A stretch of 64,000 bases of DNA. Source: Gammaproteobacteria bacterium. GTDB taxonomy: Bacteria; Pseudomonadota; Gammaproteobacteria; Pseudomonadales; Pseudohongiellaceae. Shown here in pieces: positions 1,141-12,412 of the stretch. The position numbers and the translations under genes were made by a program. The stretch covers positions 1 through 64,000 of the forward strand of contig BPDI01000008.1 in NCBI GenBank assembly GCA_019654215.1, in the 5' to 3' direction. Numbering within the stretch: position 1 is the stretch's first letter; every line of letters starts with the position of its first letter. Below the pieces are notes generated by a model, which was not told where the DNA came from, ran no database searches, and saw nothing but the letters and a program-made list of their open reading frames with translations.

Positions 1141-2353
1141 ATGGGGAGAGTGGCCGAAAAAAGTAGATAAGGGTCGGGAAGATTCAAGGGCCGCACTTTG
1201 GCCCAACTACAGCCCACCCCAGGGACTGGTATTTATTCAGGGTAAGGGTAGCGAATTGTTCACTGAGGATGGGGAAGCCTATCTTGATTTTCTATCGGGC
1301 ATTGCCGTTACCAGTTTCGGTCACTCCCATCCCCATCTCGTCGCTGCGCTTAAGAATCAGGCTGAAAAACTCTGGCATCTATCGAATGTGCATCGAATAC
1401 CATCGGCCGAAGAACTGGCCCGACGACTCGCGGCCAACAGTTTTGCTGACAATGTGTTCTTTGCAAACTCCGGAACCGAAGCAATCGAAGCAGGAATAAA
1501 AGCAATTCGTGGATACCATGCAACACGGGGGAATGCTGATCGCAATCGTATCATTGGTTTCACTGATAGTTTTCATGGGCGTACGATTGCCGCTTTAGGA
1601 GCGGCGGGAAATCAATCTCACATGCAGAGTTTTGTAACTGGTGATAATGGATTTGACCAGGTGCAATGGGAAGACATGGATGGACTTAAAAGTATCATCG
1701 GACCTCAAACTGCAGGAATTATTTTAGAACCTATACAGGGAGAAGGTGGAATAAGACTGGTTAACCAAACTTTTCTGCAAGAAGTAAGAGAGCTTTGTGA
1801 CGAGAATGGGTTACTCCTGATGTTTGATGAAGTTCAATGTGGCATCGGCAGATCGGGGCATCTATTCGCTTACGAAGCATTTGGAGTCTATCCAGACGTC
1901 ATGGCATTAGCTAAAGGTCTCGGTGGCGGGTTTCCAATTGGTGTTTGTCTAACTAAACAGGCAGTTGGTGAGTCGATGGTAGTTGGTTCCCATGGCAGCA
2001 CTTTTGGTGGCAATCCCTTAGCGGCGACAGTGGGCAATGCAGTTTTGGATTTAGTCCTAGAAGATGGCCTCTTAGATTCGGTCAAAGCCAAGGGGCAGAT
2101 ACTTAGTCAGTGCATTGAAGATTTGATAGCCAAACATTCAGACAAGATTGAATCAGTGCATGGCTTGGGATTAATGATGGGAATAAAATGCAAAATTCCA
2201 AACACTGATCTATTAGTCCAACTCCGAGAAAACAAATTACTTATAGGTAAGTCTGGATCAAACATGATTCGACTATTGCCTCCTCTTAATATTTCTCAAG
2301 AACACATCGAGCAAGCGATTTCCATTCTCGATGCTGTATTAAGTAATAAGTAG
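1141..2353 (+). CDS. astC: Succinylornithine/acetylornithine transaminase (AstC/ArgD type)
   Basis: Class III PLP-dependent aminotransferase, about 403 residues. In the AST pathway it moves the amino group of N2-succinylornithine to 2-oxoglutarate, giving succinylglutamate semialdehyde. Visible motifs: FLSGIAVTSFGHSHP, FANSGTEAIEAGIKA, FHGRTIAALGAAGN, ILEPIQGEGG, MFDEVQCGIGRSG (PLP-binding Asp) and ALAKGLGGGFPIG with the Schiff-base Lys. The open frame begins only at 1256, but ATG at 1141 plus removal of one A from the six-A run near 1160 gives MGRVAEKVDKGRE leading into ALWPNYSPPQGLVFIQGKGS, the expected N-terminus. It is the first gene of the operon, 8 bases before the M20 gene. ArgD and AstC differ little in sequence; astA, astD and astB downstream decide for AstC. 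Confidence 0.88.
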
Positions 2354-2361
2354 ATTAGAAA

Positions 2362-3600
2362 ATGAGTTTCAAAGAAAGTTGTAAATGGATCGATTCTCGA
2401 CAAGAAGACCTGTTGAATAATCTCATGCGGTTGTCAGAAATTAATTCTGGAACCAGCAACCTTGAAGGCATAAAGACGGTCGCAGACTATTTTAGATCTT
2501 ACTTTTCTGGAACTGCTGATTCCATTAGCGAGATTCAATCGCAGTCTCGTGAGCACACTGATATTTCAGGAAATAAAATCAAAGAAGAGTTTGGCAACTT
2601 ACTTTCCTTTAAGAAAAGAACGGAAGCGCCAATTCAAGTTTTACTGGCAGGGCATATGGATACCGTCTTTCCTCTGTCCCATAGTTTTCAAACACCAAAA
2701 AAACTAGATGAAAACACTTTGTTAGGACCAGGCGTTGCTGATATGAAAGGCGGAATATTGGTCATGCTCACAGCTTTACAAGCCTATGAAGCTTCTAACC
2801 ATTCCAATCAATTAGGTTGGCGCGTAATTCTCAATGCCGATGAAGAAACAGGATCTCACGGATCGGCAGAAACCCTAGAGGCAGCAGCGACCACAGCAGA
2901 TGTTGGCCTAATTTATGAACCGGCATTAGCAGATGGCACTTTATCGAGAGCTCGCAAAGGGTCTGGAAATTTTACTGTTGTCGCAACTGGCCAGGCTGCA
3001 CACGCCGGCCGGGAATATGATCAAGGTAGAAATGCCATAATGGGACTATATTCCGCTGCCCAAAAATTGGAGCAGCTTACAGAACTAGAAAATGGAATTA
3101 CGGTAAATATCGCACGAATCTCTGGTGGTACTGCTTTCAATGTTGTTCCTGCGGCCGCTGTTTTGCAGTTTAACGTGCGCTGTCAGTCAGTTGATCAGCA
3201 GCATGAGCTCGACGCAAAAATGAAGGCAGTTATTCATGAAACTGCTCAACAAAGCGAAGTCGCTTTAGAGATTAGCGGAGGCTTTTCGAGGCCTCCGAAA
3301 AGCATTTCTCCTGCAAACCAACTTCTGATGGATTGGGTTGTGGAGAGTGGCAAACAGTTGGACATCGATGTGCAGTTTAAGGACACGGGTGGCTGCTGCG
3401 ATGGGAATAATCTTGCCGCAGTTGGGTTACCCAATGTCGATACTCTCGGAGTGCTAGGCGGACAAATTCACACCGCCGATGAATTCATGCTAATCAACAG
3501 CCTGACGGAGCGAGCAAAACTAAGCCTCAATATTTTGCAAAAAATTTCAGAAGAAGGTGATCGCTTACAAGCTCTCAGTAAGCGAGATAACAAGAATTAA
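2362..3600 (+). CDS. M20-family zinc peptidase/deacylase within the ast operon (candidate desuccinylase)
   Basis: Intact 412-residue cytosolic M20/CPG2-like hydrolase; no signal peptide is visible. The di-zinc site is complete: His98 in AGHMDTVFP, Asp127 in GPGVADMKGG, the catalytic Glu161 and ligand Glu162 in NADEETGSHG, Glu186 in IYEPAL and His370 in QIHTADEF. The dimerisation (lid) domain runs from about 200 to 310, with AAHAG at 212-216. It lies 8 bases after astC, and astA begins 2 bases after its stop. The AST pathway ends with hydrolysis of N-succinylglutamate, normally by the M14-type AstE, which is absent here. M20 enzymes commonly cleave N-acyl amino acids, so a stand-in for AstE is the obvious guess. 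A general glutamate carboxypeptidase is the alternative. Confidence 0.8.
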   Translation: MSFKESCKWIDSRQEDLLNNLMRLSEINSGTSNLEGIKTVADYFRSYFSGTADSISEIQSQSREHTDISGNKIKEEFGNLLSFKKRTEAPIQVLLAGHMDTVFPLSHSFQTPKKLDENTLLGPGVADMKGGILVMLTALQAYEASNHSNQLGWRVILNADEETGSHGSAETLEAAATTADVGLIYEPALADGTLSRARKGSGNFTVVATGQAAHAGREYDQGRNAIMGLYSAAQKLEQLTELENGITVNIARISGGTAFNVVPAAAVLQFNVRCQSVDQQHELDAKMKAVIHETAQQSEVALEISGGFSRPPKSISPANQLLMDWVVESGKQLDIDVQFKDTGGCCDGNNLAAVGLPNVDTLGVLGGQIHTADEFMLINSLTERAKLSLNILQKISEEGDRLQALSKRDNKN

Positions 3601-3601
3601 A

Positions 3602-4632
3602 GTGTTAATCAGAACAGCCAATGAGGGTGACTTGCCGAGTTTGTTAAAACTTTCTGCCATGCTACCACCGGGTATGACGTCAATGCCATTTGACAAAAAC
3701 ACCTGGAAGTCAAAGATTGAGTTAGTAGAGGAAAGTCTAGCGAGAAAGAAGAGAACAGATTCGGAATCAGTTTACTTGCTTGTGCTTGAGGATCGCGAAA
3801 CCCAAAATATCGTGGGTACTGCTGGAATAGTTGCAGGTGTAGGATTAACCCGACCTTTCTACAATTACAAATTGTCCAAAGAGTCTAAATTTTCTGAAGC
3901 GCTGGATATTAGGGTTACCAGTAACTTATTGAATCTGGTTAATGATTTTACTGGCGAGACTGAACTCATATCTTTGTTTCTGATGCCGGACTATAGAAAG
4001 AACAGCATTGGTCAATTTCTATCTCGCGCTCGCTATTTGTTTATGAGCGATTTTCCAGAGCGATTCAGCGATATCGTATTCGCAGAGATCCGTGGCTGGT
4101 TAAACGAAAGTGAAAAGTCTCCGTTCTGGGAACACTTAGGTAAAAAGTTCTTTAATCTGCCTTTTGCCCGTGCCGATTTCATTAGTGCAGTAAACGGCTC
4201 TCAGTTTATCTCAGACTTTTAAAGCCAAGATTTCCCGTGTATTTGGAATTACTTCCAGAAGAAGTGGTAGAGGTTATTGGTAGACCACACGAAGAATCAG
4301 TACCAGCAAAGAGATTACTAGAACGGGAAGGGTTCAGTTATCAGGGAACTGTCGATATTTTTGATGCTGGGCCAGTTATGGAATGCGAACGCAGTAATAT
4401 TGAATCCATTAAAAATGCAAAGGCATTAACAATAAATAATATTGCCTCTGAAATTGGTGAAGATGAATCATCGCCCAAATGCATAGTTAGCAATCGTTGC
4501 CTCGAAGATTACCGTTTGATCATGGCGCCTATACGCTATGAGGAGGGAGAAGAAGCTACTATCTCAGAACAAGACGCTGAAATATTAGGAATCAGTGTGG
4601 GCGCTCAAGTTCAGACTTTAGAGTTACGTTAA
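3602..4632 (+). CDS. astA: Arginine N-succinyltransferase (AstA), one frameshift
   Basis: AstA makes N2-succinylarginine from arginine and succinyl-CoA, the first AST step. The start is GTG at 3602, giving VLIRTANEGDLPSLLKLSAM. Family hallmarks follow: GMTSMPFD, VLEDRETQNIVGTAGI, FYNYKLS, ETELISLFLMPDYRK, AEIRGWLNESEKSPFWEHLG and FARADFI. After FISDF (about 4218) a one-base slip moves to the frame that reads FPVYLELLPEE, VIGRPHEESVPAKRLLEREG and DIFDAGPVMECE, then the C-terminal domain ending at 4632. The summed length, about 343 residues, is normal for AstA. The indel lies in tttta and is probably a sequence error. astD starts 4 bases downstream. Confidence 0.88.
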
Positions 4633-4636
4633 AAAT

Positions 4637-6106
<1,470 letters not shown>

Positions 6107-6110
<4 letters not shown>

Positions 6111-7457
6111 CTACCTGAACAGCTATGAAGTCAACTTCGATGGTTTAGTTGGCTTGACTCACAACTATGCCGGTCTTTTTTTATGGTAATGTCGCGTCAT
6201 CGAGTCATGGTGGATTGACTTCATCGCCACGGGCAGCGGCGCTGCAGGGTTTGGAAAAAAAGATGGCTCTGCATCGGCTTGGATTGAAGCAAGCCCGTCC
6301 TACCTCCGCAGGAACGACCGCATATACCCACCTTAATCAAATTGGGATTTAACGCAGCGACAGAAGCAGAAATTATTGCGAAGGTAGCACAGGAAGCTCC
6401 TCAGAAACTTGCTTCTGCCTATTCAGCTTCTTCAAAGTGGGTTGCTAACGCGGCAACTATCAGTCCTTATGCAGACACTGCTGATGGCAAAACTCACATC
6501 ACCCCTGCAAATTTAACTAGCATGTTCCATCGTTCGATTGAGGTCGATACCACTTCGCGAGTATTGAAATCAATTTTTGCTGGAGACGAGTATGAGCACC
6601 ACCCGCCATTGTCGGCGGACTCAACATTGTCCGATGAAGGTGCTGCTAATCACACTCGATTTTGCGGCGCATATGGCGATCCTGGTGTAGAGCTATTTGT
6701 ATTTGGAAGCAGTAAAAAAAATCCTTATCTTGCACCAGAGAAATTTCCAGCCCGTCAGACTTTAGAAGCATGCCAATCAATTGCCAGCAATCATGGCTTG
6801 GCTTCAAGTAAAACAATATTTGCTCAACAAAACCCGAAAGCCATTGATGCTGGTGTATTTCACAATGATGTTATTGCTGTGGGAAATCGAAACTTGCTGT
6901 TCTATCACGAACAAGCTTTTGTGAATAATTCAGAAGTTTGTGATCAGCTCAGTGCTGTTTTCGATCAGGGTGAACTGATTTTTATTGAAGTTCCTAAAGC
7001 TCAAGTGAGTTTAAAAGATGCCATTGCTTCTTACCTATTTAACTCTCAACTGCTTAGTGTTCCTAGTACAGAAGGAACCACAATAATTGTTCCGACTGAG
7101 TGTCGGGATATTGAATCAGTTCATGATTATCTTAATAAGCTCGAAGCTGAGAACAGCGCCATTGATCGAGTTATGTATTTCGATTTGCGCCAGAGTATGA
7201 ATAACGGCGGCGGCCCGGCTTGCTTACGTTTAAGAGTAGTTATGAGTGAAGAACAAATAGATAGTTGTGGGACGAATGTATTCCTAACAGATTTACTCTA
7301 TGAACAACTTAAGACCTGGATCGAAGCACATTATCGGGAAAGCCTGGTGCCAGAGGACCTGGCGGATCCAGCTTTGTTGGAAGAATGTCGTCGTGCCCTG
7401 GATGAGCTATCCGAGCTACTTAAGTTAGGATCGGTCTATGATTTTCAGTTGAACTAG
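6107..7457 (+). CDS. astB: N-succinylarginine dihydrolase (AstB), frameshifts near 5' end
   Basis: AstB hydrolyses N2-succinylarginine to succinylornithine, two ammonia and CO2. ATG at 6107 overlaps the astD stop, suggesting translational coupling. Three slips (about 6115, the T run near 6176-6182, and 6297) separate YEVNFDGLVGLTHNYAGL, YGNVASSSHGGLTSSPRAAA and LPPQERPHIPTLIKLGFNAA. From 6342 the frame is clean: SKWVANAATISPYADTADGK, DEGAANHTRF, FAQQNPKAIDAGVFHNDVIA and NNGGGPACLRLRVVM, which holds the catalytic Cys. It ends LLKLGSVYDFQLN. Length (about 450 residues) and motif order match the family. It is the last operon gene and overlaps the convergent phosphatase stop by 4 bases. Confidence 0.9.
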
Positions 7458-9034
7458 CGAGCATCCATCTGAGCTGCTTCCATCATCACATGGAAGATCA
7501 CGTTCTGTTCCATCACTCCTCGAATTAAATCTGAGCCCGCTCCTATTGCATAAATTGCTACATCTTCCCCCGCATGAGTTTCACTTGACATGTGAACGAG
7601 GGATTCGGAATGAAATCCTTCGTGAGTTGTATCCACATCACTTAAATCGGCCCGTCTATTTTCCTGAACTGGAACTGTGTAGATTGCTTCGGCTGAATTT
7701 CGACCTGGAGTTTCTGCAAATCCCCTACCGTTGGCATAGCCGAGGGTAGTGTAAGGTAGACCATCTCGGGCAAGAGTTGGCTCTGTTCTAGGTTGTCCTG
7801 CTGCATCCAGGCCTACAACTTTCCCTAAGATAGGATTTCCTCGTTTTGGATAACCAGCGATGGTAAATACGTGGCTGTGATCTGCAGTTACTATAATCAG
7901 GGTTTCATTAAGGTCCACCATCTCAACCGCAGTTTTTACTGCGCTAGCCAATTCGATAGTATCTCGCAATGCACGAAATGGATTTACTGCATGATGGGCA
8001 TGATCGATTCGTCCAGCTTCGATGTTTAGGTAATAGCCTTGTTCATTTTTACTGACTATTTCAATGGCTTTCGCAGTCATCTCAGTGAGTGTCGGCTCTC
8101 CACCTCTATCAGCTGGAGTATCATAGGAATATTGCATGTGAGAAGGATTAAACAGACCTAACAAGTGATCTACGCTTTGTGAATCGATAGCATCAAACTG
8201 TTCTTTATTCCATACATAGGCTGCATTATTGTGATTTTCAACCCATTCTTCCGGTAGATTTCTTCCGTCTAAACGTCCACCCTGTCCGCCGGTTTCAGGG
8301 TCTGCTCCGTCTGTCCTGGGAATGAAGTTTCTTCGCCCTCCACCCATGGCAACCTCAATTCCATCACTACCTGGCACATTATCAACGAATTCGATTAACT
8401 GTCGGGCGATATCAGGGCAATCCCCTGCATTGCGCAGATTTTCTGCATCTCCGTCATCTTCAAAATCCCGCTCCATACTATGTGCATAGTTTGCAGCAGG
8501 TGTGGCATGGGTGAGACGGGCAGTACTTACGACTCCTGTAGACATCCCTTTCGTTTCAGCCAATTCGAGAAATGTCTGTAACTCATTTCCGGCCTCGGTA
8601 CTGCAATCTCCGCGTTCTACGTTTTGATTGATGCTGATTATCCCTCTGTCGGTTTTAACACCGGTAACCATGGCTGTCATCGTGCCCGCAGAGTCAGGCA
8701 CCTGCGCGTCAGTGTTATAGGTTTTAGCGAGGGCGACATTAGGAAAGGTTTCGAAGGAAAGCTCGTGTTCTTCTCCTGGATTCCCTTCTAATTGTCCAGC
8801 AAGAATTCGAGCTGCTGTGACTGTAGATACACCCATACCGTCTCCAATAAATAGAATTACGTTTTTGGCTATTGGTATTTCAGCATTGGCGTAACGATAG
8901 GACAGGTTGCGTTCAACTACTGCTCTACCTTCCTCGTACCAACGCGCTGGTGTTTCTTGGGCGTTAGAGGAAAGAGTGAGTGTGCTGAGAAAAATAGCAG
9001 GCCAAAGCCAGAGATTAATCTTTGAGAGAATCAT
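7454..9034 (-). CDS. Alkaline phosphatase (PhoA-type), exported
   Basis: Intact 526-residue alkaline phosphatase that releases phosphate from organic monoesters in the periplasm. A Sec signal peptide spans about residues 1-25 (hydrophobic INLWLWPAIFLSTLTL, cleavage near SNAQ). Metal and active-site motifs are NVILFIGDGMG (Asp65), the nucleophile Ser115 in PDSAGTMTAMVTG, EAGRIDHAHHAVN, VTADHSHVF and SSETHAGEDV. It is monocistronic and convergent with astB (4-base overlap). With the PhoD-like, acid phosphatase and SurE genes elsewhere in the window it points to a phosphate-scavenging lifestyle. No Pho box was recognised upstream. Confidence 0.93.
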   Translation of the reverse strand: MILSKINLWLWPAIFLSTLTLSSNAQETPARWYEEGRAVVERNLSYRYANAEIPIAKNVILFIGDGMGVSTVTAARILAGQLEGNPGEEHELSFETFPNVALAKTYNTDAQVPDSAGTMTAMVTGVKTDRGIISINQNVERGDCSTEAGNELQTFLELAETKGMSTGVVSTARLTHATPAANYAHSMERDFEDDGDAENLRNAGDCPDIARQLIEFVDNVPGSDGIEVAMGGGRRNFIPRTDGADPETGGQGGRLDGRNLPEEWVENHNNAAYVWNKEQFDAIDSQSVDHLLGLFNPSHMQYSYDTPADRGGEPTLTEMTAKAIEIVSKNEQGYYLNIEAGRIDHAHHAVNPFRALRDTIELASAVKTAVEMVDLNETLIIVTADHSHVFTIAGYPKRGNPILGKVVGLDAAGQPRTEPTLARDGLPYTTLGYANGRGFAETPGRNSAEAIYTVPVQENRRADLSDVDTTHEGFHSESLVHMSSETHAGEDVAIYAIGAGSDLIRGVMEQNVIFHVMMEAAQMDAR

Positions 9035-9188
9035 TCTGTTAGTCCGTTTTAACTGAGGTGATTATGCAATTCGCATGTTACATGAAAATGAGTCTTAAAT
9101 TAGTAGGATAATTTTCCCAATTCAAGATTTTGCAAACATTAAATGACTAAGGTCTAATAATCCCTGCGAGAATTAGAGGACAGCTCCG

Positions 9189-9404
9189 ATGGAAATTGAG
9201 ATCAACTATTGCATGGCATGAAACTATCAGCCAGATGCTGACCGTGTGTCGGCAGAAATTAAAGAAGCGGTCGGGGTCGAAGCCACATTGATAGCCGGAG
9301 GCGGCGGTATCTTCGATGTAAAGCGGGATGGTGTCCTGATATTCTCTAAGCATAAGCTCGGCAGATTTCCCAATGAGGGAGAAATCGCAGATTTGCTTAA
9401 GTAA
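9189..9404 (+). CDS. SelW-like (Rdx family) selenoprotein, Sec encoded by in-frame TGA
   Basis: A 71-residue thioredoxin-like protein of the SelT/SelW/SelH (Rdx) family, read as MEIEINYCMA-U-NYQPDADRV and on through AGGGGIFDVKRDG, IFSKHKLGRFPNEGEIADLL. TGA at 9219-9221 falls at residue 11, exactly at the redox-active second position of the family's CxxC/CxxU motif (here Cys8-Met-Ala-Sec11). AGAGGA at 9175-9180 is a good ribosome-binding site 8 bases before the ATG. A hairpin fitting a bacterial SECIS follows the TGA. Ordinary gene callers would miss it because the TGA splits the frame. No selA, selB, selC or selD lies in the window, so decoding is inferred. The alternative, that TGA is a base error for TGC or TGT, is weakened because local damage elsewhere is indels, not substitutions. 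Confidence 0.85.
9236..9257 (+). promoter_or_regulatory. Candidate bacterial SECIS hairpin
   Basis: Directly downstream of the in-frame TGA the RNA can fold as CTG(A)CCG / TGTGT loop / CGGCAG: 9238-9240 pairs with 9253-9255 and 9242-9244 with 9250-9252, with A9241 bulged. The apical loop (9245-9249) starts 23 bases after the TGA and carries a G as its second base. This matches the known bacterial SECIS layout of a short stem with a small G-containing loop roughly 16-37 bases past UGA. Pairing was done by eye. Confidence 0.65.
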
Positions 9405-9410
9405 GTCTAC

Positions 9411-11099
9411 TTAATCTTCTACCAGGTGATGCTTAGGATCTACTGGTCGCATTAATGCATTACTAACCAGCGCAATAGCCAGCAAGGCTGCCATTAACAC
9501 CATAGTCGAATTGTAAAGACTGCTAGTCGGGTCCGTAGTCCCGGCAGGAGCGATTTCCATCAGCCGAGAAATAGTTACGGTATTCGAAGCTACCAAGGCT
9601 TCTAATTGATCAACGCCTGCGCCGAACTGTGCCTGGAATGCAGATACATCTGTCACAGAAACTAAATCTTCAATGGCATTATTGACTGAATTCTGACGCA
9701 AAGAAGTAATTGCAAGCGGTCCTAATACTCCGGCTGTACTCCAGGCGGTTAATAAGCGTCCATGAATTCCGCCTACATATTTCGTTCCAAAAATGTCGGC
9801 AAGGTATGCAGGTATGGTGGCAAAACCACCGCCGTACATCGTAAAGATGATCATTGTGGCGGCATAAAAATAAACCAGCCAGACCACAGATGGGTTGACG
9901 CTTACTTGCTGTGCCGTGATTGGTACAGAAAGGTAGAGAACTATTCCTAAAGCAAAGAATATCCAGTAAGTAGTTCGCCTACCTATGTAGTCCGATGTGC
10001 TTGCCCAAATAAATCGTCCAACCATATTGAAGGCGCTAATCATTACAACATAGGTAGCGGCAAATGCGGTGTCGACTACTTGCGGTAGTGACGAACCAAA
10101 GATTTCCGTAATCATGGTTCGTGCTACCCCCAGCACCCCGATTCCGGCCGTAACGTTAAAGCAAAGCACTATCCATAACTGATAAAACTGTCGTGTCTTT
10201 AAAGCTTCGTCGATGTGTACATTATGGCTGGAAATTAATGCACCTCTTTCCTCCTCGCTGGGTTCTTCCCAGCCAGCAGGCTTCCAACCTTCAGCTGGTA
10301 TTCGATAAGAAAAAGCGGCCAACAACATAACGACTAAATAGATTAGTCCTAAGACCAAGAAGGCTTCAGCAACACCAGCAGCACCTGTTTCAACTACATA
10401 AACCCCTTCCGGCCCAGGCACTGTCATGTCTCTAACTTCCGTCGCACCAACTACAACTACTTCTCTTAAAGTTCCGCTTACTTCGGCGAATCTGCGACCG
10501 GCTTCAGTAACCAGATTGACATCTGTAGCTGCTCCTAAATACTCGGGTGCTTGATAAAACGTGCGGATGAAAAATTCTTTCAGTGGTGTGCCGATCATTG
10601 CACCGCCGCCGAAACCCATAATGGCCATGCCAGTAGCCATACCACGACGGTCTGGGAACCAACGTATGAGTGTACTTACAGGAGATACATACCCCATGCC
10701 GAGGCCAACGCCACCAATCACACCGTAGCCTAAATAGAGAAGCCACAATTGATGAGTCAGAATTCCAGCAGCCCCCACGATATAACCGCCACCCCAGCAA
10801 CATGCCGCTACTACACCGACTTTGCGTGGTCCAGCTTCTTCCAACCATTTTCCGGCAAAAGCCGCGGCTAGGCCTAGAGATACGATAGCTACAGTAAATA
10901 CCCATACCACTGCGCTAAGACTCCAATCGTCCGCGGCGCTGGTAACCACGCCGTAAACACGAGTGAGGGGAGGGTTGTAAATACTCCAGGCGTACACTGA
11001 CCCAATACATAAATGAATCGCGACGGACGCTACGGGAACACGCCAACGGTTGTAATCAGCAGGCGCAATAATGCGTTCCTTGGAGAGAAGTCCGGCCAT
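9411..11099 (-). CDS. MFS transporter, oxalate/formate antiporter (OFA) type
   Basis: Intact 562-residue major facilitator protein with about 12 membrane segments. The N-terminus RWRVPVASVAIHLCIGSVYA followed by WSIYNPPLTR is the OFA-family signature, and GYGVIGGVGLGMGYVSPVST and GMGIMGFGGGA-like stretches follow (MATGMAIMGFGGGAMIG). It is longer than usual (about 410): an insert after helix 6 at about 210-250 is rich in Val, Glu and Thr, and a second, near the C-terminus (SVTDVSAFQAQFGAGVDQLE), lies before the last helix. Such proteins exchange small mono- or dicarboxylates; the substrate here is unknown. It stands alone, and its stop lies 6 bases from the end of the convergent selenoprotein gene. 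Confidence 0.85.
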   Translation of the reverse strand: MAGLLSKERIIAPADYNRWRVPVASVAIHLCIGSVYAWSIYNPPLTRVYGVVTSAADDWSLSAVVWVFTVAIVSLGLAAAFAGKWLEEAGPRKVGVVAACCWGGGYIVGAAGILTHQLWLLYLGYGVIGGVGLGMGYVSPVSTLIRWFPDRRGMATGMAIMGFGGGAMIGTPLKEFFIRTFYQAPEYLGAATDVNLVTEAGRRFAEVSGTLREVVVVGATEVRDMTVPGPEGVYVVETGAAGVAEAFLVLGLIYLVVMLLAAFSYRIPAEGWKPAGWEEPSEEERGALISSHNVHIDEALKTRQFYQLWIVLCFNVTAGIGVLGVARTMITEIFGSSLPQVVDTAFAATYVVMISAFNMVGRFIWASTSDYIGRRTTYWIFFALGIVLYLSVPITAQQVSVNPSVVWLVYFYAATMIIFTMYGGGFATIPAYLADIFGTKYVGGIHGRLLTAWSTAGVLGPLAITSLRQNSVNNAIEDLVSVTDVSAFQAQFGAGVDQLEALVASNTVTISRLMEIAPAGTTDPTSSLYNSTMVLMAALLAIALVSNALMRPVDPKHHLVED

Positions 11100-11276
11100 T
11101 TATGAAATCCTTTCTGCCATCTTTAGCGAAATGGCAGTCTTTGTTTTTATATTTAATAGCTGGTCGTAAAACTAACGCATTACATGGAATCTGTAAAAGG
11201 TAAGAGCCTTTGGTGCTTGGTTTAATCAGATGAAATGAACTAGGATGACAGAAAATAAAAATAGCAGGGGGATATC

Positions 11277-11789
11277 ATGGTGGAATCCTATACCCGTGGC
11301 CAAAAAATTCTACATTGGTTACTCGCCGTTCTTGTGTTGTTTTGGTTGTTAGTTTCCGGGCAAATCGCTGCTTCTTCTGAAGGCGAACAGAAAGGTATGA
11401 TTCTGATGTTCCATTCCGGTGGGGCGCTAATCATATTTGCGTTGATGATGTGGCGCTATTCAAAACGCCGCAAGAATCTTGTTATGCCTTTAGCCGAGCT
11501 GAAATCCTGGGAACAATCCTGGAGCAGAAAAGTTCATGTCTCTTTTTATGTGTTGGTTACTTTGATGGCGATAACAGGAATTCTGCAAGGCGTGTTCTTC
11601 GATCAAGCGGTGCGCGTGTTTGGGGCCATCAATATCACGGTAGGTCATAACGAGTCATTGATGTCGACTTTTAATCTACTTCACAATGTTGTGTCGAAAA
11701 TTTTTCTAGCGTTGATTGCGCTACATGTGTTGGCGGCATTAAAGCATCAATTCGTTGATAAGCTCCCTTTTATAAAACGAATGACTTGA
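11277..11789 (+). CDS. Cytochrome b561 family protein
   Basis: A 170-residue four-helix di-haem b561 of the bacterial CybB type, which passes electrons from ubiquinol, sometimes to superoxide or a periplasmic partner. It begins VESYTRGQKILHWLLAVLVL with the first haem-ligand His in helix 1. FHSGGALIIFALMMWRY, VHVSFYVLVTLMAITG and LHNVVSKIFLALIALHVLAA supply the other His ligands in helices 2-4. AGCAGGGGG just before the ATG is the ribosome-binding site. It lies between convergent neighbours and is not in an operon, so a specific partner cannot be named. Confidence 0.88.
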   Translation: MVESYTRGQKILHWLLAVLVLFWLLVSGQIAASSEGEQKGMILMFHSGGALIIFALMMWRYSKRRKNLVMPLAELKSWEQSWSRKVHVSFYVLVTLMAITGILQGVFFDQAVRVFGAINITVGHNESLMSTFNLLHNVVSKIFLALIALHVLAALKHQFVDKLPFIKRMT

Positions 11790-11875
11790 AAACTAGCACT
11801 AGTCTTGAGTAGTTTCTGTCAAACGCTGGGACGAATGTCGCGCTTCTATGCGCTTATGAAGTCATGGTTCTTTAG

Positions 11876-12412
11876 CTAATTAGAATGGATATGACTTCTA
11901 TCTATGAAGCCATTGGCATTTGGCATTTCGATAGCTATTAGAGTATCGGCGTTTAATTCGGTGTCTTCGCCGATAATTTCATTCATGAAAAGCACATAGG
12001 CAGTAACCTGATACGCCTGTTCATTGGTAAGAGATTTGGGCGCAGTTGCCGGCATTGCACGTCGTATGAAATCGAATACCGTGCTGGCGTAAGGCCAATA
12101 ACTACCTACAGTGCGCAATGGTGGGCCTTCCGATTGCATATCACCGCCGACAATTATGGTGTTGCCTGAAGTGCCTTCACCATCTGCCCCATGACATACA
12201 GCGCAATTAATGTCATAGACTTCCTTGCCCTGTCTGGCAGTACCACCGCCAGGGGGAAATCCAGTTCCACTTGGTTCTGCAATTAGATCGAATCCTTCCA
12301 AATCTGCTTCAGTGATCGGAGTGCCAAGTCGCACTCTTTCTTGAGAGTTAACAACAAGGGTACTTAAAGCAACACAAATTGCAAAGAATATTATAACAAC
12401 TTCCTTATACAT
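11876..12412 (-). CDS. SoxD-like c-type cytochrome
   Basis: A 178-residue exported monohaem cytochrome c. The signal peptide is VVIIFFAICVALSTLVVNSQ. The haem-binding site is CAVCH at residues 70-74, followed by GADGEG, and the likely axial Met is in RRAMPATAPKSLTNEQAYQV. The proline-poor spacer SLTNEQAYQVTAYVLFMNEI is typical of the cytochrome partner of SoxC-type molybdenum dehydrogenases. The start overlaps the soxC stop by 8 bases, so the two are translated together. Much shorter than the dihaem SoxD of Paracoccus, it corresponds to one haem domain only. Confidence 0.85.
   Translation of the reverse strand: MYKEVVIIFFAICVALSTLVVNSQERVRLGTPITEADLEGFDLIAEPSGTGFPPGGGTARQGKEVYDINCAVCHGADGEGTSGNTIIVGGDMQSEGPPLRTVGSYWPYASTVFDFIRRAMPATAPKSLTNEQAYQVTAYVLFMNEIIGEDTELNADTLIAIEMPNANGFIDRSHIHSN

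Follow-up and report, generated by a model that had tools for sequence, protein, structure and literature searches.

We identified a SelW-like gene of the Rdx family at 9189..9404 on the forward strand of the window, the 64,000-nt stretch of DNA analyzed here. We consider it highly likely, with a probability of about 93%, that this is a functional selenoprotein gene in which the UGA at position 9219 is decoded as selenocysteine (Sec). The gene, the conservation of its TGA, the covariation of a downstream hairpin, a tRNA-Sec and the predicted fold of the product were all computed here. A preliminary description of this DNA had already proposed Sec decoding, and the proposal gained support from a TGA common to all loci read, from a covarying SECIS element and from the presence in the genome of tRNA-Sec, SelD and the selA and selB loci.

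A SelW-like gene with one in-frame TGA

The gene starts with an ATG at 9189-9191, is preceded by a Shine-Dalgarno-like AGAGGA (9175..9180, forward strand) with an 8-nt spacer, and ends with a TAA whose last base is 9404. Its 71 codons include a single in-frame TGA, codon 11 (9219..9221, forward strand), which forms a CxxU motif (C8-M9-A10-U11) within YCMA-U. The ATG, the AGAGGA, the 71 codons and the TGA in YCMA-U agree with the preliminary description. With UGA translated as Sec, the product is MEIEINYCMA-U-NYQPDADRVSAEIKEAVGVEATLIAGGGGIFDVKRDGVLIFSKHKLGRFPNEGEIADLLK. ORF callers that halt at TGA would skip this gene, which is overlapped by an antisense ORF of 68 aa (9147-9353).

The SelW-like identity of the protein held up in profile searches, for which the TGA was entered as Cys standing for Sec. 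Pfam Rdx (PF10262) matched residues 2 to 70 with an E value of 1.5e-15 (57.6 bits, cut-off 22.6), and TIGR02174 matched with 43.8 bits (cut-off 34.2). The equivalog model NF041051 (SelTWH_Campy) was narrowly missed, at 86.6 bits for a cut-off of 88, so that the protein is not filed there. Solved relatives retrieved by sequence search were C17orf37 (MIEN1) and bacterial SelW-related proteins, and the Sec position is a Cys in 2ljk and 2fa8, the two for which alignments were shown. An AlphaFold2 model based on an alignment of 26 proteins from the window and the loci (mean pLDDT, 92.1) predicts a thioredoxin-like fold with C8 and U11, in which a strand (residues 3 to 8) is followed by a helix (residues 14 to 28). 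The model superposes on SelW-related structures, the best PDB match being 2fa8 (TM score, 0.90; rmsd, 1.2); mouse SelW (2npb) was also among the structure matches, with an E value of 3.3e-3.

Conservation of the TGA codon

We searched for selW in 97 genomes of relatives, 61 from the genus (our own genome included) and 36 from the order, and obtained a match in 40. Within the genus, the gene is present in 37 of the 61 genomes, again counting our own; one of them has two matches, and all 38 genus matches contain exactly one internal stop, a TGA. No version with Cys was found in the 61 genomes of the genus at an E value of ≤0.001. Beyond the 37 carriers, genome G050 matched over a 32-residue tail only, and two weak matches outside the genus have no internal stop. 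A scan of named genomes gave 226 matches, the best 80 of which were taken for reading; these 80 span Gammaproteobacteria, Planctomycetes, Verrucomicrobia, Desulfobulbaceae, Chloroflexi, Acidobacteria and others. Codon 11 is TGA in 110 of 110 loci, made up of the 30 loci from relatives and the best 80 of the 226 named matches and corresponding to 93 distinct sequences, with our own copy counted and some genomes present twice. Of the eight genus matches without a locus, two, both from genome G057 and outside the 110 loci, were read base by base; codon 11 is TGA in these as well. These two nearly identical SelW genes with TGA (3324-3737 and 8956-9255 of locus L136) lie about 5.5 kb apart, separated by genes that may belong to tyrosine catabolism.

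Since Cys occupies this position in 2ljk and 2fa8, one might suspect a Cys-type SelW in which the TGA arose by an ordinary nonsense mutation or by misreading of a Cys codon. We regard such a pseudogene or sequencing error as extremely improbable in view of the conservation of TGA in all 110 loci, which makes a misread TGC or TGT at 9219-9221 not credible. The covariation of the SECIS described below argues in the same direction, as does the bias of substitutions in selW toward third codon positions (1, 2 and 13 at positions 1, 2 and 3 in our own lineage).

A covarying SECIS hairpin downstream of the UGA

A hairpin at 9236..9254 on the forward strand, with 9236-9242 paired to 9248-9254, consists of 6 bp plus an outer U-A pair and carries a CGUGU loop (9243-9247), the second base of which is G. 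The 6-bp stem and the 5-base, G-containing loop had been reported previously and were borne out, but not their placement 23 bases after the TGA: the distance from the UGA is 14 nt for the start of the stem and 21 nt for that of the loop, and the value of 23 nt matches the loop G. The bSECIS model, as presented in PMC13188914, has a loop of 3 to 9 nt, a stem of 4 to 16 bp, a G at one of the first two loop positions, a UGA-loop distance of 16 to 37 nt and a low folding energy. The 5-nt loop, the stem of 6 to 7 bp, the G at loop position 2 and the 21-nt distance of selW all lie within these limits. Compared to shuffled sequences, its folding energy was unremarkable (z between −0.35 and −1.42); of the four pieces folded, those of 42, 62 and 95 nt prefer another structure. 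The rule taken alone is weak evidence, because its loose form is satisfied after 62% of the 1228 forward-strand TGAs of the window. A bSECIS score of at least 14 was obtained after 5.9% of the forward-strand TGAs, and selW scores 17. Counting both strands, the window has 2354 TGAs, of which 5 are followed by a CGUG-loop hairpin of at least 5 bp at 16 to 37 nt; among these five, the TGA of selW alone continues into a long open frame (60 codons versus 0, 3, 16 and 4). An Rfam search of 8900-9700 gave no match to a SECIS family; the sole listing was a snoRNA with an E value of 1.4.

Covariation, in contrast to the rule alone, supports the assignment of this hairpin as a bacterial SECIS. Among the 93 distinct sequences, we used the 36 of the ADRVS type, to which the window belongs. 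The third bases of codon 17 (Ala) and codon 21 (Ser) pair in 34 of 36 sequences, versus 17.8 expected and in six types of pair (C-G, U-G, G-U, A-U, G-C and U-A), a result reached in 0 of 100,000 permutations, which ignore sequence relatedness. The loop is closed by a C-G, G-C or U-A pair in all 36. Over the inner four pairs, 142 of 144 cells are paired, whereas 3000 draws from a synonymous-codon null averaged 60.4 and reached 86 at most. Arg-19 is encoded by CGU in 36/36 sequences, a codon used for only 8% of 26 downstream Arg codons in the same sequences. The outermost pair (9236-9254) is not conserved (19/36). In a 24-sequence alignment, the covariation score of 0.297 was reached by 0 of 500 shuffles, which likewise ignore relatedness, and slid controls, which preserve it, gave at most 0.069. 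The five inner pairs were predicted independently by RNAalifold.

In the remaining 57 sequences, most of them from other phyla, a hairpin occupies the same place. Its loop is AGUYU or GGUCU in 51 of these; pair 20-32 is formed in all 57 and the complete set of four inner pairs in 43. A G stands at loop position 2 in 93 of 93 distinct sequences. The hairpin offers a clean case of a SECIS recognized from covariation at synonymous sites, its place and loop G being kept across phyla and its sequence varying. In one relative (G017, locus L052), the SelW sequence is altered around the hairpin and the C terminus is unrelated after residue 55; this is possibly a decaying copy.

An open frame by itself would also be compatible with the UGA being read as another residue, for example Trp, through suppression or a change of code. 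We give this reading hardly any credence: the position aligns with the Cys of Rdx proteins, the genome contains a tRNA-Sec, and the covariation of the hairpin would have no purpose under a code in which UGA means Trp.

Other genes with an internal TGA

In our own genome, PF00578 has 13 matches, 4 of which contain one internal TGA; one of these is a fragment below the cut-off. The remaining three are a peroxiredoxin with FTGGU and two peroxiredoxin-like proteins with DWUPxC, encoded at 14565-14927 of contig C1, 101023-101487 of contig C5 and 49129-49524 of contig C13. In all three, a 6-bp stem capped by a CGUGN loop can form 20 to 21 nt after the UGA, much as in selW, and for one of them (L148) the best-scoring form has 7 bp and a GUG loop. 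From their sequences, these three genes probably encode further selenoproteins. PF02627 (AhpD-like) has 5 matches in the same genome, 0 with an in-frame stop.

Sec machinery and the frame breaks in selA and selB

The preliminary description had suggested searching the assembly for selA, selB, selC and selD. All four were found in our draft genome (2.96 Mb in 71 contigs, 72.9% complete), although selA and selB are frame-broken in the assembly. The tRNA-Sec (selC) has a TCA anticodon and scores 65.5 bits for a cut-off of 47. SelD is part of a 757-aa Pyr_redox_2-SelD fusion encoded in one frame (2212-4485 of locus L134). This fusion joins SelD to a pyridine-nucleotide-disulfide oxidoreductase domain and has the CxxC motif CAGC inside; Ndh-SelD fusions are described likewise in the GOS paper (PMC2398784). 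Across the genus, tRNA-Sec scored above the cut-off in 50 of 61 genomes under stricter filters, which lose weak matches. Eight of the 11 genomes without a match carry selW, and selA is intact in all six that were tested for it; missing matches may therefore reflect genome incompleteness.

The selA and selB genes of our genome lie on contig C12 (55000-68000, locus L133), where selA (1515-2773 of the locus; 56526-57849 of C12) is spread over several frames with stops and selB (8290-10252 of the locus; 63289-65251 of C12) is split into two overlapping ORFs. By contrast, 25 of the 26 other genomes tested for selA have an intact copy (G024 has none), and selB is full length without stops in 12 of 15, including the sister genome G097; of the other three selB genes, that of G036 has one stop, that of G025 is missing its first 50 positions and that of G016 is cut by the contig edge. 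Aligned with the sister, selA differs by 7 one-base indels and, at its end, by 23 nt in length; selB differs by 1 indel. Such breaks, set against the intact genes of the relatives, are what would be expected if the lineage had just lost selA and selB function, in which case the UGA would terminate translation and SelW would no longer be made. SelW and the three peroxiredoxin-type genes, with their SECIS hairpins intact, would then sit behind unreadable UGAs, shaped by past selection.

We consider this loss improbable. Long decay would relax the bias between codon positions, yet the bias is kept in our own lineage, with substitutions at positions 1/2/3 of 49/22/89 in selA (39/30/99 in the sister), 70/40/121 in selB (93/46/139) and 49/34/88 in astD of the window (42/31/105), an excess at third positions comparable to that of intact controls. 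This holds for astD even though it differs from the sister by 13 indels (11 of one base and 2 of two bases). Also against a loss, selW and the three peroxiredoxin-type genes have no further frame break. Indels are clustered as well: gaps not divisible by 3 between the window and the sister number 16 at 4800-6300, 3 at 6300-11700 and 4 at 11700-12000. Homopolymers are enriched at the indels of astD (3.15 versus 2.45) but not of selA (2.43 versus 2.44), and the latter is a point in favor of a genuine loss and against assembly error. From the clustering and the retained codon-position bias, we conclude that the frame breaks of selA and selB are probably local indel errors in the assembly, and we infer that both genes are intact in the living organism.

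The window itself contains a segment at 4186-6290, presumably carrying astA- and astD-like genes, with many one- and two-base indels relative to the sister locus L053; the flanking genes for the alkaline phosphatase and the MFS transporter are free of indels.

Genetic neighborhood of selW

As previously noted, selW adjoins an alkaline phosphatase gene, which matches PF00245 and is divergently oriented (7454..9034, reverse strand). The convergent gene on the other side (9411..11099, reverse strand), labeled OFA in the preliminary description, encodes an MFS transporter (PF07690). Both neighbors are linked to selW by synteny only: an alkaline phosphatase homologue adjoins selW in 11 of 22 compared loci and a partial one in two more, and an MFS homologue lies directly downstream in 9 loci and further downstream in 6. 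A different gene pair is found downstream of selW in 9 of the 22 loci. We looked for a functional partner or client in these 22 neighborhoods, and none was indicated, the phosphatase and the MFS transporter being the genes that recur.

Proposed function and comparison with known selenoproteins

We propose that SelB carrying Sec-tRNA-Sec would bind the hairpin at 9236-9254, which would allow the ribosome to decode the UGA at 9219 as Sec and to produce a 71-aa thioredoxin-like protein in the cell. The C8-x-x-U11 pair would probably alternate between a selenenylsulfide and a selenol-thiol form, and SelW may act as a thiol-dependent antioxidant or reductase on some client. In PMC1088965, the function of SelW-like proteins is called unclear, with the CXXU motif suggesting a redox role, and an interaction with glutathione is mentioned.

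SelW-like CxxU selenoproteins form an abundant marine family known since at least 2005 (PMC1088965). By abundance, they are reported to rank first among the families of the Sargasso Sea set (PMC1088965) and of the table in the 2008 GOS study, which gives 427 Sec and 56 Cys sequences (PMC2398784); in a later marine survey, their share of 11.3% was the largest (PMC9402790). Given this abundance in all three surveys, our find is confirmed but ordinary: it is a new member of a family already common in the sea. It adds a clear case of predicted Sec decoding in a genus one of whose genomes (G025, OX638378.1) bears the name uncultured Pseudohongiella sp.; our literature search found no publication combining Pseudohongiella with selenoprotein.

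Compared with the SELENOW-like bacterial selenoproteins (PF10262), as characterized in PMC1088965, PMC2398784 and PMC13188914, we found no essential difference: the Rdx domain, the CxxU motif and a downstream bSECIS are common to both. For Campylobacter jejuni SelW (CJnc60), Ribo-seq and mass spectrometry are reported to show full-length translation past the Sec site (PMC11955535). Like this protein, ours is small, with a UGA that is predicted to be read by tRNA-Sec, and its best-scoring NCBIfam model is named after Campylobacter; unlike it, ours has 71 aa and remains at 86.6 of the 88 bits, whereas the C. jejuni protein has 80 to 81 aa and is established by experiment. The Cys-type bacterial Rdx structures 2fa8, 2obk, 2p0g and 2oka share the fold predicted by our model, with TM scores of about 0.8 to 0.9, but their chains are longer and, where aligned (2fa8), they have Cys in place of Sec.
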